DNA from: Anas platyrhynchos | Taxonomy: Eukaryota; Chordata; Aves; Anseriformes; Anatidae | DNA length: 64,000 nt | Assembly (NCBI RefSeq): GCF_047663525.1 | Contig: NC_092611.1 | Span: 6,423,001-6,487,000 of the forward strand | Direction: 5' to 3' | In this document: positions 7,843-50,373 of the stretch, one piece after another | How positions within the stretch are numbered: the first letter of the stretch is position 1 | Layout: each line of letters opens with the position of its first letter | Program-made: the position numbers and the translations under genes | The notes under the pieces: model-generated | Database searches by the model: none | Told to the model about the DNA's origin: nothing | What the model saw: the letters and a program-made list of their open reading frames with translations, nothing else

Positions 7843-9051
7843 TATAAGTGTATATCTATATTTATTTTTTCTCTAATACACGTGAACACAAATGTGATGT
7901 GGAGATAAATTCCCTTCTCTAAAACACTTTGTGGTCACAGTAATGTACACATTTGGATTTACATACCCACACACATTCCAAATATCAAAAAAAAATATAG
8001 TCCCAAAACTAAGATGCTTTTAAAAAAAAAAAAAAGAAGTTAAAAGGCCAGATTCCTCTATTGGCTTTTATCCTTCATTAAGAGTGCGAAGATTACCTGA
8101 AATCATGATTTTTTTCTTCATATTCTGCCTGAGTTCATTTTGAAATTCCAATCAACAGATGCAAGAAGGAGAAGGGGAAAAGCTAGTGGGGGGTCACACT
8201 AGGCTTTGAAAAGGAAAATTAGAGAGAATATTTTTCTTTCTAATTTTTTTTTTCCTCTCTGGGTTGCAGGTTATAAGAAGGTTTTTTAAAGGATGCTTTC
8301 TCCAAAGCGTTGGCTTCAAATTACGTCCCCATGGCATCTGGATTAAACAGAGTCAATCAGAAAAATTTGGAGTGGGAGTGGGAGGGAAAAAAGAAACAAA
8401 AGCCCTAAACCAAGCCCTTCTTTCTATTCTTGGTTGGTTCTGAGCATCTTTCAGTGTAAGCATCTTATTATTTGGTTCAGCAACCTTGGCTGTTTAGTTG
8501 TTTGCAACAGGGATTTCCCATCCCCACTGCCAAGGGGGAAAACAGTTTTCTCCAAGGGAGTAAAAAAAAAACCTCCAGCCTCAGATTTGGGCACTGGCCG
8601 GGCTTTGAAACTTCACACAAGCTGGAAGAAGGGTTGTGGAGGATCCACACCTGGCTACTCTGGTGCAAGCAGTGCAGAGAGGGACACGAGGGGACCTACG
8701 GACATTTAATGGGGTCGGGCACATCCCATCCCACACGGGGCAGCTGCCACCCGCCTATGCATGCATGCACACAGCCAGCTTGGTACAGGGGGGCCAGCAC
8801 GAGAGAAGAAAGGTTCAAGAGCTGGATGAGATGTGGGCGAAGGCAGTGCTCCCTCGAGCATTAGCAAGCCAGGCAGATACTTAACCTAATCACGTCGCTT
8901 ACAACCGCACCGAAATTTAGAAATCAATAAATAAAATAAGCAACGGCAAAGTGTGTGTCGGGGAGGGGGGGTTAAAAGGCCTTGGCTGTTGAGCGACGGG
9001 GTCGGGAGGTGTGAAAAACATTTAGCTTCGTCTTTTTGCTGTGCTGACACT
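7843..9051 (-). other. NECTIN1: Possible 3' untranslated region of exon C
   Basis: About 1.2 kb from the EQYV stop to an AATAAA on the minus strand. The region turns AT-rich between about 7900 and 8460, with a conserved-looking unique sequence. The end is inferred from the signal only; an ATTAAA at 8705-8710 is a nearer alternative. Confidence 0.4.
7861..7866 (-). terminator. NECTIN1: Possible polyadenylation signal AATAAA (exon C)
   Basis: AATAAA on the minus strand in gaaaaAATAAAtata, 1.19 kb after the EQYV stop and the first full consensus downstream of it. It sits in an AT-rich patch, so chance is possible. Confidence 0.4.
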
Positions 9052-9270
9052 TCAGACGTACTGTTCCTTAGGACAGATGTAAGGGGCCCGGGAGCCGGGG
9101 GGTGGGCAGCAGAAGGAGACGTCGGGGTGCTGAGGGTAGAGGTCTCGCGGGAGGTCTGACAGGGGGGCGTAGGCGTGGGGGATCTTCTCCAGGTATCGAC
9201 CTTCGCGTGGGTAGCAGCGGCTCAGGTAATCACTCGCATTCGGTACCTCTGAGTGACACTTTCCAAAGTC
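9052..9270 (-). CDS. NECTIN1: Candidate nectin-1 terminal exon C: tail ending EQYV
   Basis: This open segment of 219 nt (72 codons and a stop) starts directly after a strong acceptor, tgtctctctgcttccag, in phase 0. That phase is compatible with the donors of exons B2 and B3. It reads DFGKCHSEVPNASDYLSRCY, PREGRYLEKIPHAYAPLSD, then a proline/cysteine-rich part with VSFCCPPPGSR, and ends YICPKEQYV. The last four residues fit the nectin C-terminal motif E/A-X-Y-V that binds the afadin PDZ domain. YAPL fits a YxxΦ endocytic motif. Combined with exons 2-5 and B1-B3 it gives 496 residues plus the signal exon. I do not recognise this tail from described nectin-1 isoforms. Alternatively it is a terminal exon of an unrecognised neighbour, or a chance open frame. 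Confidence 0.65.
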   Translation of the reverse strand, partial: DFGKCHSEVPNASDYLSRCYPREGRYLEKIPHAYAPLSDLPRDLYPQHPDVSFCCPPPGSRAPYICPKEQYV

Positions 9271-12200: not shown

Positions 12201-14607
12201 GGGATAATGAACTAATTAAATTGAACTGCCACTTTCCCCCACCTGACTTCTCCTGCTTGTCTTTGTTTCCAGTATGGCTGCATACAATTCCTCGTTATCT
12301 GGGTTACATCCTCCCCCCTCAGTTTTATTTTCAAGGGCTTGATTAAAGGGGATGTCAGCAATCTATCCATTTCAGACAGCCCAGCAGATTACCTTTAAAC
12401 GGTCTTTATTTGATTGAATTAGAGAGCTTTCATTTCTGCTATGACTTATTCTCATCCCTTCTCCATCTCCTATGCACTTGTGATCATCTCCTTGGTAGGA
12501 CTAGCTGTGCCACAGCTTTCCCTCCAATCTGACCACGTGCAATACTTCTTATCACTAAATAATCAGCTCTTACTGATCTAAAAGAGACAAGTTCCTTCTC
12601 AATGTTCTGAGGATTTACCTGCTCCAGTCTCTGGAAAACCCCAGAGCTGAAATTCCCCCAAATTAGGGAAGGAGCTATGATGAAGGATGCACCCACAGAT
12701 ACATGCAAGTACTATTTCTGCAGTAAGCTCACTCCTAAGGTTGCATTCCTCCTTACGGCATGCTTTTAGCTCTTCAGCTATAGCTACTAACCTGTTCTCT
12801 CTTCCTACAGCATCTTAGGCCATCAATAACCTTAAACCTTTACCCTCATGCTGTTTCCCTTGTGAGCTGTCTCTAAAACTTCACAGCCAGGGTAGGGTTG
12901 GTGCCCTCATCCTACAGCTGGGCAACTAATGGGGAGCCACCTCAGCACTTTTCTTAATTCCTCCCACAAACTGGAAATGGGTTATTGAACAGGGGCGTGC
13001 TCAGGCAACTTCTGTGTTGATAGGAAGGAGAAGTGGTAAACGGGAGCTGAGCCAGTGTTTGGTGGTTCTTCAGTATCCCCAGCTCACACTGTGCCAAATC
13101 TGTGATGGGTGCAGATTTAGTGGTTTTATAGTGGGTTTTGTAGGGAAAACAGAGCTGGGAATCTGATCCCGGCTCTCTGATTTACTGGGATCTTGATGCA
13201 AGTCTCAAGGTTTGAGCTATTCTTGCTCTAACAGGGACAAGAAATTCCCAAACAAAAGTGAGAACAGGAGTGTGGGGAGGTGAAGGGGGAGGAAATAATT
13301 AAAAAAGCATAAAAAAAATAAAAAATCACCCTGATCTGTGGTGTGTCATAGCAGGGAGATTTCGTGGCGGTGAGATTACACCTTCAAAGCACCATATGAC
13401 TGGCTTTATTTTTGCTTCAGAGAAGCTGGGAGGATTTCCAAATTTGGATTTAGAGGATTACTGTCCTTTTGCTGACAGTAAAATCCCCCACCCTGGGGAG
13501 GACGAGGTGAGACCTCCCAGGATGGATTAGGCAGCGCCTGCCTTGTTCGTACCCAGGCGAGTGGTCCTCTGGTGCAGCCCGAGGAGCTGCAGCGATGCGG
13601 AGGTGAAGGCGTAAAGAAAAGAGGCTGCTCCCAACCACAGCCTCCTCCAGCCTGTTGGAGCTGGGCAGGCTGGTGCCTGGTGCCTGAGCACAAATAGACC
13701 CCAAAATCGAATGGAGATGAAAAAGCAACCCCAAAGCGACCCAGAACTTACTGTCCGCTCTCGCTCGTTACGTCTACGAAGACCTTGATCCTCATTCTGG
13801 GAGCAGGGGTGGGCAAGACACCGCAAGAGAGAGAGGTTACCGCTGCGCTCCGGGGCCGGCCCCGCTGCAGGCACTTACCTAGGGAGGTTTTTGCTACAGC
13901 AGGGGAACTACAGGGCTCCTTCCAGCACGGGAAAGCCAGGGGGCACGGGGGTAGAGGCAAACTGAACCAGCCCACCACGCGCCTTCCTCTCAGGCTGCTC
14001 TGCCCCACTGTCACCCACCTGGTGGCACTGATGTTCCTGGTCTGCAAGGGGACTTCTTTAAAAGTCGTTTTCCTCCCGCTCACCCCCCTGCATAGAGCTA
14101 TTTCCTTCCAAGGGAATTCCCAAGGTTTCAATTCCCTTGCCACTTATTCTCTCCTCCAACCCAGCCCTCTCCATCCCCAAGCTGCTGTTTCTGTGAGCAT
14201 CCTCTGGTGACCCCGGAGGGATTTGGGGTGCTGCAGAGCACTCCAGTACCCCCTCTACTTTGGATAGGGAACTGGTGGCTTTAATCCCTGAGAAAGGGGT
14301 AGGATTATAGGGTAAGGGGGTGGGAGAAGACCTTGAGGACACCAGTTTTCTCTTCAAATGCCATTCTGCTTCACAGTGTCACTGGTAAATAGAGAGGCCC
14401 CAGGACCACCACTGGTGGGTTTGAATGTGAACCGAGTCCTAAGCAGTCCCTGCTGTGGGACCTGAGCCTAAAGGGCCTGGGTGACACTCCGAGTGGAACA
14501 AACAGGGAACAAATGAGCGGGTCTGATTGCTGGTTTTGAGAAGGAGAGCACCAAAGGAAAAATCTCCCTCCCTCTCTCAAGCACTCCAACATGCCATCTG
14601 CATCAGC
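9271..14607 (-). other. NECTIN1: Stretch between exon B4 and exon C; intronic if exon C is used
   Basis: 5.3 kb without a supported exon. It includes a MIR-like SINE remnant (13153-13222), an AT-rich patch (12170-12240) and simple A/T tracts near 13300-13325. For transcripts using exon C it is the 3' part of a 10.6 kb intron starting at 19822. No gene is seen. Confidence 0.65.
13153..13222 (+). mobile_element. MIR-like SINE remnant
   Basis: The run gctgggaatctgatcccgg, then ctctctgatttactggg, then gcaagtctcaaggtttgagc, resembles the MIR core in forward orientation (gggttcgaatcccggctc, ccacttactagc, gggcaagt, cctctgagc). Similarity is partial and by memory; an RNA-polymerase III B-box-like part is recognisable only as tctgatcccgg. 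Confidence 0.4.
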
Positions 14608-15335: not shown

Positions 15336-15476
15336 CTAGCGTAAGTTGGGCTGGATGGTTGCGTACTCGACTAGGTCTCCGCCAGCATGGATGGAGCTCC
15401 GAGGGCTGGGTGACGAGGCCAGAGCGGACGTGTCCAGCTCTGCATAGTGGACATCACAGTCCTTGTTGCCAGAGTT
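15336..15476 (-). CDS. NECTIN1: Nectin-1 terminal exon B4: tail with two ITIM-like motifs
   Basis: This terminal exon is entered in phase 0 and encodes 46 residues and a stop. It begins NSGNKDCDVHYAELDTS and ends DLVEYATIQPNLR. Both VHYAEL and VEYATI fit the ITIM consensus [I/V/L/S]-x-Y-x-x-[L/V/I], which recruits SHP phosphatases once phosphorylated. A serine-rich spacer (SSPSPRSS) lies between them. The tail lacks a nectin-type C-terminal PDZ motif, so this isoform would not bind afadin in the usual way. The acceptor is tctctccag. With exons 2-5 and B1-B3 the frame closes at 470 residues excluding the signal exon. The exon is convincing by acceptor, phase and sequence coherence; the inhibitory-signalling role is inferred from motif pattern. 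Confidence 0.85.
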   Translation of the reverse strand, partial: NSGNKDCDVHYAELDTSALASSPSPRSSIHAGGDLVEYATIQPNLR

Positions 15477-19822: not shown

Positions 19823-19933
19823 CAGCTTGTCGGTGTAGGGAGAGGGCTCGCTGGCTGCCATGTCGTAGTACGGAGGCTGCAGGGGGAGCTTCTGGATTTC
19901 CTCCTCGTGCTTCATGTTGTCCAGGTGAACAAC
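19823..19933 (-). CDS. NECTIN1: Nectin-1 alternative exon B3: cytoplasmic cassette with PPYY/YYDM
   Basis: This exon of 111 nt (37 codons) is phase 0 at both ends, so it can be included or skipped without a frame change. It reads VVHLDNMKHEEEIQK, LPLQPPYYDM, then ASEPSPYTDKL. PPYY fits the WW-domain ligand PPxY, and YYDM fits the YxxM pattern bound by PI3-kinase SH2 domains when phosphorylated. The acceptor is ctgttacag and the donor is CTG|gtaaggag. From memory, the human short transmembrane form (458 residues) is closer in length to a form lacking this cassette (about 460) than to one including it (about 498), so it may be alternatively spliced. That comparison is unverified. Confidence 0.85.
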
Positions 19934-21648: not shown

Positions 21649-21796
21649 AGGTCGTGGTCGGCGTCCGTGCGGTTCTTCTGTTGCCTCCTGTAGACGACGA
21701 ACACGGTGACAGCCACGCCGATGATGAGCACCGCGGCGATGACGCCTCCCATGATCCCAATGATGCCGCCCGGGGCGCCCTGAGGTAGCGGCTTGT
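21649..21796 (-). CDS. NECTIN1: Nectin-1 alternative exon B1: second transmembrane segment
   Basis: This internal exon of 148 nt, phase 1 in and phase 2 out, can be joined to the same donor as module A (G|AC gives Asp). It encodes a short linker DKPLPQGAPGG, a hydrophobic helix (IIGIMGGVIAAVLIIGVAVTV then FVVY) and a stop-transfer/cytoplasmic start RRQQKNRTDADHD. The acceptor is gtgttgcag and the donor is CT|gtgagtag. Nectin-1 in mammals has a shorter transmembrane isoform with a different anchor and tail, and this exon fits that role. No Ig exons lie between this and exon 38283-38824, so a separate nectin gene is unlikely. The helix is rich in small residues with G-x-x-x-G spacing, unlike the helix of module A. 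Confidence 0.88.
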
Positions 21797-38282: not shown

Positions 38283-38824
38283 CTACACGTACCACTCCTT
38301 TTTGGAAATGAAGGAGCCGTCGTTCTGCGACACCATGTTCTCGGCGATGTCGAGCTGCTCGGGGTCGTACTGGAAGCCGAGTGTCCGCTCGTCGTAGGGC
38401 TCGGGGTGCGCCTCGCCCTCGTCCACCGTGAAGTAAGGCCGCTTGGCGTCCTCCTCGTACTTGTTGGGGCCGCCCAGCTTGCGCTCGCCGCCCGCGTCCT
38501 CGTCCTCGTCTTCGTAGGTGCTGCCTCCCAGGGGGCCCGGCTTCTTCTCGTCGTCCGAGTCGTCGGGGTACTGCAGGTTTTGGGCCATGGGGGGGTGATG
38601 CTGCGGGATGCCGGCCTTGCTGTAGCCGTTGCCGTAGACGTGCTTCTTTGTGCTGTAGTCACCCTTGAAGGTGTGACGCCGGCGCCGGAGTACCACAAAG
38701 AGCACCACGGCCACCACCAGGACCAGCGAGACGCCTCCCACTATGCCCCCGATCACGGGGGTGGGGATGTTCGGCTGCACCATGGATTTGCGATCATCGA
38801 TTGGAGACGGGGTGTAGGGAAATT
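38283..38824 (-). CDS. NECTIN1: Nectin-1 terminal exon A: transmembrane helix and EWYV tail
   Basis: This terminal exon carries 542 nt of coding sequence, entered in phase 1 so that G|AA gives Glu of the juxtamembrane segment EFPYTPSP. A hydrophobic helix follows (PVIGGIVGG ... VVLFVVL), stopped by RRRRHTFKG, then a long cytoplasmic tail. Visible tail features are YSTKKHVYGNGYSKAGIP, PDDSDDEKK, an acidic run with DEDEDAGG, RPYFTVDEGEA, YDPEQLDIAENMVSQNDG and the C-terminus SKKEWYV. EWYV fits the nectin E/A-X-Y-V motif that binds the PDZ domain of afadin and links nectins to actin at adherens junctions. Joined to exons 2-5 it gives 488 residues, plus the missing signal exon; human nectin-1 of this form has 517. 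The acceptor is ttttcctacccag. The acidic run looks shorter than the mammalian glutamate run. Confidence 0.96.
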
Positions 38825-45509: not shown

Positions 45510-45661
45510 CTGTGACATTGACTTCCACCAAGCCCGACCGGGTCCCGATGGCGTTGGAGGCCTCGCAGATGTAGGTGCCGGCCACGCTGTAGGAGACGGG
45601 CCCCTTGAAGTAGATGGTGTTGTTCTGGATCTCCACACTGCCGGGCAGCGTCCCGTTTGGC
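45510..45661 (-). CDS. NECTIN1: Nectin-1 exon 5: second C2-type Ig domain, second half
   Basis: This exon of 152 nt enters in phase 2 and leaves in phase 1. It completes the membrane-proximal Ig domain with segments PNGTLPGSVEIQNNT, FKGPVSYS, VAGTYICEASNAIGTRSG and VEVNVT. The cysteine of TYICEAS pairs with the one in exon 4. N-glycosylation sequons are visible at NGT, NNT and NVT. The acceptor is ttctcccctag and the donor is G|gtaggaaag. This is the last exon shared by all the tails proposed here, because the following exons at 38824 and at 21796 both have phase 1 acceptors that accept the terminal G. If this donor is not used, the open frame runs eight more residues into the intron and stops, which would give a secreted ectodomain. 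Confidence 0.95.
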
Positions 45662-48605: not shown

Positions 48606-48723
48606 AGCTTCCACTCGTAGGTGTGAGCGGGGGGGTTGGCGTCAGACTTGCAGATCAGCTTCACGTCCTTCCGATTGAGAAACCAGTTGCCATCGAACCC
48701 CTCGATAGTGACTTCTGGCTCGT
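48606..48723 (-). CDS. NECTIN1: Nectin-1 exon 4: second C2-type Ig domain, first half
   Basis: This exon of 118 nt enters in phase 1 and leaves in phase 2. The split first codon (T from exon 3 plus AC) gives Tyr, so the start reads YEPEVTIEGFDGNW, a signature of nectin-1. The first disulfide cysteine of the membrane-proximal Ig domain is in VKLICKSDANPP, and the end reads TYEWK plus a leucine codon split as CT|G. The acceptor follows a long pyrimidine tract ending ctgcag; the donor is CT|gtaagtac. In the nectin family this third Ig domain is encoded by two exons, as here. I am confident because the protein sequence, splice sites and phases all agree. Confidence 0.95.
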
Positions 48724-49058: not shown

Positions 49059-49361
49059 ACTGCACGTTGAGGGTCATGCTGTCGGTGAAGCGCTCCAGCT
49101 GGTAGTTGACCACGCACATGAGCTGCTGCCGGTGGGCTTCGCGGCTCGGCACCAGGCGGTAGCGGCTGATCACCGTGATGGTGCCGTTGCTGTTGCGGAT
49201 CTCCTGGAACTCCGCTTCCCCTTTGAGCTTGGTGTCCCAGGTGACGGTGCTGGGGGGCTTCCCGTTCGAGGAGATGCACGTGGCTACCAGGATCTTCTCC
49301 GTCCTGCCAGCCTTGGCGATGAGGGGCCGCGTGGTGCCCTCCATCCGATTCGTGGGCTTGG
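49059..49361 (-). CDS. NECTIN1: Nectin-1 exon 3: first C2-type Ig domain
   Basis: This exon of 303 nt is phase 1 at both ends. Joined to the previous exon it reads TVL-AKPTNRMEG, the expected linker between the IgV and first constant-type Ig domains of nectin-1. The two disulfide cysteines are in LVATCISS and QLMCVVNY, and the core Trp is in TVTWDTK. The segment ISRYRLVPSREAH is very characteristic of nectin-1. Sequons are visible at NGT in EIRNSNGTI, and at the NRM-adjacent linker there is none. This domain supports the ectodomain and lateral (cis) arrangement rather than being the main trans-contact. The acceptor is cttcttgcag and the donor is T|gtaagtga, a near-perfect consensus. The open frame would run only two codons past the donor before a stop, which supports the donor choice. 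Confidence 0.96.
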
Positions 49362-50022: not shown

Positions 50023-50373
50023 CCAGCACGGTGAGGTTGAGCTGACCTTCCCGGTTGCCGGTGGGGAAGGTGGCAAACTCGCAGATGTACACCCCCTCAT
50101 CCTCCAGCTCCAGCCGGGAGAGCTGAATGGTGCCGTCTTTGAAGGACGGGTTGCGGAAAGTCACCCGCTCTTTGTAGGGCGAGAGGATGGAGACCCCCAT
50201 GGCCGGGTTGTAGATGGCCACATTCTGCTTGCTGTTGTTGGTGGCTTTCTGCCAAGTGACCTGCGTGATCTTCACATTGGGGAGCGGGTTGGTGAAGCTG
50301 CAGTGCAGGACCACGTCCGTCCCGATGTACCCCGAGACTGTGTCATTGACTAAGACAGTCTGAGCTTGCACCC
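50023..50373 (-). CDS. NECTIN1: Nectin-1 exon 2: membrane-distal IgV domain
   Basis: This exon of 351 nt encodes the V-type immunoglobulin domain that mediates nectin dimerisation between cells; in mammals it is also the docking domain for alphaherpesvirus glycoprotein D. The reading frame includes VNDTVSGYIGTDVVLHCSF, the tryptophan of VTWQK, and DEGVYICEFATFPTGN, so both disulfide cysteines (HCSF and YICEF) and the core Trp are present. N-glycosylation sequons are visible at NDT, NNS and NLT. The acceptor on the minus strand is a pyrimidine-rich tract ending gttgcag, and the donor is G|gtaagac. Both ends are phase 1, the usual arrangement for Ig-domain exons. The first codon is completed by one base from exon 1, which is outside or not found. 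Similarity to mammalian nectin-1 is high in the DEGVYICEFATFPTGNRE segment. I am very sure of the family and confident of the nectin-1 assignment. Confidence 0.96.

Follow-up and report, generated by a model that had tools for sequence, protein, structure and literature searches.

The NECTIN1 gene in the window

The window analysed here, a stretch of 64,000 nucleotides from the Anas platyrhynchos contig NC_092611.1 (assembly GCF_047663525.1, positions 6,423,001 to 6,487,000), carries on its minus strand the exons of a nectin gene together with a distal segment referred to below as exon X. When the ectodomain exons were joined and compared with solved structures, they matched nectin-1 with an E value of 1.5e-160, nectin-3 with 2.3e-60 and nectin-2 with 1.7e-50. 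The gene is identified as NECTIN1 by this nectin-1 ectodomain, which lies upstream of exon X on the same strand. The features considered in this report are as follows, with positions counted from the first letter of the window.

50023-50373, minus strand: V-domain exon, in the joined ectodomain match to nectin-1
49059-49361, minus strand: first C-domain exon, in the same match
48606-48723, minus strand: second C-domain exon, first part, in the same match
45510-45661, minus strand: second C-domain exon, second part, with a phase-1 end that feeds both tails
38283-38824, minus strand: alpha terminal exon, encoding the first transmembrane segment and a tail with a KKEWYV end
21649-21796, minus strand: TM2 exon, an open frame encoding the second transmembrane segment
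20301-20388, minus strand: exon B2, phase-0 end
19823-19933, minus strand: exon B3, phase-0 end, which would join B4 or exon X
15336-15476, minus strand: exon B4, terminal, with the ITIM-like motifs VHYAEL and VEYATI
15367-15476, minus strand: short B4, ending at an internal donor GA/GTACGC (the slash marks the junction), with the second ITIM-like motif lost
13752-13796, minus strand: 45-base microexon MRIKVFVDVTSESGQ, with acceptor ctcccag and donor GTAAGT
9052-9270, minus strand: exon X, frame a, recognised by acceptor, translation and conservation
9222-9270, minus strand: exon X, frame b, encoding TLESVTQRYRMRVIT followed by TGA at 9224-9222, equal to the end of the lizard protein P0026
8705-8710, minus strand: ATTAAA lying beyond exon X, a possible poly(A) signal by motif match only

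The last ectodomain exon, with its phase-1 end, can join either the alpha exon or the TM2 exon. The TM2 exon (21796-21649), B2 (20388-20301) and B3 (19933-19823) constitute a single open frame which continues into exon X. Both B2 and B3 end at codon boundaries, and after B3 two continuations are open in phase 0, namely B4 (15476-15336) and exon X (9270-9052). B2 and B3 may resemble the tail of human nectin-1beta, and exon X may resemble the end of nectin-2delta. ITIMs conform to the pattern V/I/L/S-x-Y-x-x-L/V/I, and it is by this motif that B4 is read as a putative ITIM exon. The donor inside B4 is weak, agreeing with the consensus at five of nine places, and it is equalled or bettered by 42% of the GT dinucleotides on the minus strand. 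The microexon is intact in the window and is optional between short B4 and frame b of exon X; its 15 residues are all identical to those of the Anolis protein P0030. Phase 0 of the microexon (13796-13752, minus strand) is also open and reads NEDQGLRRRNERERT, and we met no annotated isoform that carries this reading.

Exon X and its splice signals

Exon X consists of 72 codons between 9270 and 9052 on the minus strand, with a stop codon at 9054-9052, and the last residues of frame a are ICPKEQYV. Its acceptor directly adjoins position 9270, the minus-strand letters being tctctctgcttccag before the junction and GACTTTGGAAAG after it, and 13 of the 16 bases at -5 to -20 are pyrimidines, a value equalled or bettered by 5% of the YAG sites of this strand. 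An earlier sequence-only reading of this DNA had described a 72-codon segment behind an acceptor, in the phase of B2 and B3 and with a KEQYV end, and every one of these elements is present. Beyond the ATTAAA, the next poly(A)-type motif is an AATAAA at 7866.

On the minus strand of the window, with all three frames taken together, there are four instances of [EADKQ]-x-[YFW]-V-stop, and E-x-Y-V is found in only two of them, exon X and the alpha exon (EWYV). When the host genome was searched with exon X, accepting E values up to 0.001, the sole match was exon X itself, and a search with the whole tail, accepting values up to 10, gave seven matches of which four were exons of NECTIN1 itself and three were weak (E 1.8, 6.2 and 9.2). 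Exon X alone matched no family in Pfam. Against solved structures it retrieved 14 sequences, all kinesin light chains, with a best E value of 0.0036; the match covers residues 19-52 (window positions 9216-9115, minus strand), is weak, and was set aside as probably due to chance.

Exon X thus combines three attributes of a terminal exon, an acceptor, a phase that matches B2 and B3, and an end homologous to that of annotated nectin-1 proteins. It is, as judged from sequence, a genuine alternative last exon of NECTIN1 for the tail that carries the second transmembrane segment, and splicing into it would be expected in Anas platyrhynchos. The earlier proposal of a terminal exon with an E-x-Y-V end, alternative on this tail to the ITIM exon at 15476, is upheld.

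Conservation of exon X and its KEQYV end

A protein search with the joined tail drew 115 proteins out of 444 candidates, and among these were nectin-1 isoforms predicted for vulture, manakin, turtles, gecko, anoles, frogs, newt, sturgeon, teleosts and cartilaginous fishes, while a search with only the last exon as query yielded 14 matches among 22 candidates and missed the frogs and rays found with the joined tail. Pooling of the searches produced a set of 117 proteins, each representing one 90% cluster, and these proteins of relatives are mostly pipeline predictions. Exon X in frame a forms the C-terminal end of 65 of the 117; a further 29, sharks among them, end in full B4, 16 carry a shortened B4 followed by another end, and seven end otherwise, one of these (P0005) having an exon X match with a different end. 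The exon had been presented earlier as unrecognised, a description that is not supported, given that predicted isoforms of many non-mammalian vertebrates already end in it.

The C-termini of the 65 exon X proteins are EQSV in 40 (teleosts by name), EQYV in 23, KEQA in one and DQRI in one, so that a C-terminal valine after EQ-x is retained in 63. All 23 relatives with the EQYV end, which include horn shark, sawfish, skate and electric ray, share the last 14 residues GSRAP[YF][IV][CY]PKEQYV. Over the whole exon, identity is 81% to vulture and 72% to turtle; the proteins concerned bear a nectin-1 annotation or contain the Ig domains of nectin-1. Ten exon X sequences, from bird to shark, have 15 invariant columns, among them P56, G59-P63 and P67-V72, and because of these columns exon X is judged to be old and its PDZ-type end to be its best-kept part. 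Chance, which the sequence-only reading had already called improbable for such an end, is excluded by the uniformity of the 23 EQYV relatives.

Several gene models depart from the common arrangement. P0015 from Crocodylus porosus ends PKEQA and not PKEQYV, which may be a real loss or an error in the gene model. In P0083, P0089 and P0108, from cartilaginous fishes, B2 is joined directly to exon X (DDIQ-YNGN) and B3 is skipped, both junctions being in phase 0. P0053, P0117, P0111 and P0073, from ray-finned fishes, contain additional residues after the TM2 exon and before B2, for example IAVAAVADSCVTQAPEKPESPTR.

Since the KEQYV end is present in cartilaginous fishes, its distribution places it in the ancestor of the jawed vertebrates. 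The absence of a KEQYV-type end from the described beta form would then likely be a loss. No mammal occurs among the representative names of the 117-protein set, which is weak evidence of loss as such a search misses distant relatives. The earlier suggestion that junction anchoring was re-gained on a different cytoplasmic tail probably has the direction wrong, because the end already exists in cartilaginous fishes.

A second reading frame and a shortened B4

Neither the second reading frame of exon X nor the microexon featured in the earlier account. The first 49 bases of exon X, including a stop, are also open in the +1 frame, which we term frame b. On entry into this frame base 9270 completes a glutamate codon, and the donor inside B4 leaves that codon intact. 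The lizard protein P0026 ends GGDLVE-TLESVTQRYRMRVIT, its last 15 residues agreeing with frame b of the window exon at 15 of 15 positions, and Anolis P0030 inserts the sequence that matches the 45-base exon at 13796-13752.

B4 is cut at LV[ED] in 16 of the 117 proteins. Frame-b ends with their stop are annotated in lizards, gar, shark, ray and teleosts and are entered from the donor inside B4, in some isoforms by way of the 45-base microexon. Birds, turtles, crocodiles and amphibians contribute none of the 16 short-B4 proteins. In the teleost proteins P0090, P0091, P0092, P0094, P0100 and P0111, from percomorphs, an earlier stop leaves a frame-b end of only nine residues.

We then asked of annotated pairs whether a single DNA sequence can encode both the frame-a and the frame-b peptide of a species. 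For pairs from the same species the fit was exact in Anolis sagrei (16/16), Paralichthys (10/10) and Denticeps (16/16), and 10/11 in Syngnathus typhle, and each of these four fits ranked best of the 509-535 offsets within its own protein. Across species, exact fits were obtained for Pristis with Hemitrygon and for Acipenser with Lepisosteus (16/16 each). Among the 16 short-B4 proteins the comparisons covered these six cases and, against the window, P0026; of the other nine, P0052 and P0046 had their frame-b ends set against peptides of other species, with inexact best fits of 15/16 and 14/16. In annotated isoforms, as read from their sequences, exon X yields two peptides in two frames.

Tests for selection on frame b

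The tests for selection employed proteins of other species, whose shared ancestry makes them non-independent. Changes in frame a were counted in 13 amniote relatives as distinct changes explicable by a single base, with three two-base changes left out, and P0067, whose assumed first residues do not occur, was dropped from the frame-b comparison. In the first test, based on codon position, first-position-only changes accounted for 12 of 17 in residues 1-16 versus 26 of 64 downstream (p 0.027). Under a lenient count, 13 of 14 frame-a changes in residues 1-16 are possibly silent in frame b, compared with 26 of 48 in residues 17-72, which were read in the same hypothetical frame as a comparison set (p 0.007); under a strict count, with ambiguous codons scored against silence, the figure is 10 of 14 (p 0.20). 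The silent fraction expected from codon structure alone is 31-43%.

Nine distinct amniote 16-residue peptides differ from that of the window at 3-6 residues, and six of them permit an identical frame b; random frame-a mutants with 3-6 changes keep it in 0.3-9%. The remaining three, from turtle (P0007), Anolis and crocodile (P0015), do not permit it. Between Anolis and the window, frame a has changed at 6 of 16 residues and frame b at 1 of 15 (p 0.08). Frame-a peptides of frogs, newt and teleosts cannot encode the amniote frame b. A residue-shuffle control was set aside as it ignores homology. Because most frame-a changes fall where frame b can stay unchanged, purifying selection on frame b appears likely.

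A possible splice-frame switch

In the reading that we consider moderately probable, the conserved exon X, an alternative 3'-terminal exon of NECTIN1, likely acts as a splice-frame switch between anchoring and signalling tails. Joining of B3 to exon X would produce a 72-residue end terminating in KEQYV, on an anchored tail without ITIMs, and this end is a predicted ligand of a PDZ scaffold such as afadin. Joining of B3 to full B4 would instead supply two ITIMs, putative sites for SH2-domain phosphatases. If the donor inside B4 were spliced to exon X, the first 49 bases of the latter would give TLESVTQRYRMRVIT and a stop, so that short B4 with frame b, whether or not the microexon is included, would produce a tail that bears a single ITIM and lacks a PDZ ligand. 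A basic end would be added by frame b, leaving the KEQYV codons in the 3'UTR.

The wider proposition is tentative, and we regard it as somewhat doubtful: that an exon of NECTIN1 has been under selection in two frames since the ancestor of the jawed vertebrates, the phase of entry deciding between a PDZ-anchored receptor and an ITIM receptor with one motif and not two, and that mammals have lost this switch, so that work on mammals has missed much of the ancestral range of tails.

Of the other explanations, that exon X is a chance open frame and no exon at all is extremely improbable. E-x-Y-V is a short pattern, and exon X belongs to no Pfam family and has only the weak kinesin light chain match, but a chance origin is excluded by conservation, with the vulture and turtle identities given above and an end that is invariant down to sharks. 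A single-frame exon with a PDZ-type end, whose frame-b ends are annotated splicing noise kept only by way of frame a, is a more substantial alternative and one that we hold to be unlikely. Neither the strict count of silent changes nor the Anolis comparison yields a low p value, the B4 donor is weak, birds are missing from the short-B4 proteins and percomorphs have a shortened frame b, all of which would be compatible with noise; yet frame b and its stop recur from lizards and gar to shark, ray and teleosts, it has changed in Anolis at a single residue where frame a changed at six, and the microexon that feeds it is identical in bird and lizard.

A further alternative leaves the conservation of the exon as it stands and supposes that KEQYV is not a ligand of the afadin PDZ domain, being bound by another PDZ protein or kept for another reason. 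To this we give a somewhat greater chance, while still thinking it rather improbable. The residue at -2 is Q where EWYV has W, 40 of the 65 relatives end EQSV, and the conserved block begins a good way before the final four residues. Nevertheless the family motif E/A-X-Y-V as described (PMC3053160) permits any residue at -2, and nearly all of the relatives retain the C-terminal valine after EQ-x. Afadin is the precedent offered by the family, by analogy, and with Q at -2 and EQSV in teleosts the partner of this end may be another.

Implications and comparison with known systems

No title on exon X or on a second NECTIN1 frame appeared among the open-licence literature matches listed. Exon X is real, ancient and already annotated, and the second frame is the new part, undescribed among those matches. 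Nectin-1 is a receptor of adherens junctions and the one through which herpes simplex virus mainly enters neurons and epithelia (PMC3182920); whether nectin splice variants are functionally conserved among species has been called interesting to examine (PMC7286890). If other vertebrates can indeed place a PDZ-type end or ITIMs on the same second tail, splicing could decide whether nectin contacts hold or signal, and nectin-1 as modelled on mammals would be a reduced version. Moreover, a short two-frame overlap extending from cartilaginous fishes to lizards could provide a clean test of functional versus noisy frameshifting splicing.

Nectin-1beta, or HIgR, shares its ectodomain with the alpha form and has a different transmembrane region and tail, as described in PMC3873263, and the TM2-B2-B3 arrangement of the window would be the bird counterpart of that tail. 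Nectin-1beta is described as lacking a PDZ-binding motif (PMC3053160), whereas the exon X form ends EQYV and in this respect departs from the beta form. E/A-X-Y-V ends occur in nectin-1alpha, -2alpha, -2delta and -3alpha; EQYV fits this motif, as does the EWYV of the alpha exon in the window, but exon X has Q at -2 and a different upstream tail, and teleosts have EQSV. PVR (necl-5) carries an ITIM and no PDZ motif, as stated in PMC7286890, and exon B4 would give nectin-1 an ITIM tail of the PVR kind, differing in that B4 has a pair of ITIM-like motifs and is one of the ends between which splicing chooses.

The second frame finds its closest parallel in frameshifting splicing, where a last exon is read in another frame and the coding sequence of one isoform is the 3'UTR of another, as set out in PMC7392665 and PMC13247117. 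The word nectin is absent from the main texts of both papers. The splicing-accessible coding 3'UTRs and dual-coding isoforms arising there from non-triplet splicing are alike to the present case in that a change of splice phase rereads the last exon, and the 49-base overlap of frame b falls below the threshold of 60 recoded bases that PMC13247117 sets for dual coding. Compared with the cases described there, exon X is distinguished by phylogenetic depth, with its pair of ends recurring from cartilaginous fishes to lizards, and by an exchange of signalling modules in which a PDZ-type end would be swapped for ITIM tails.
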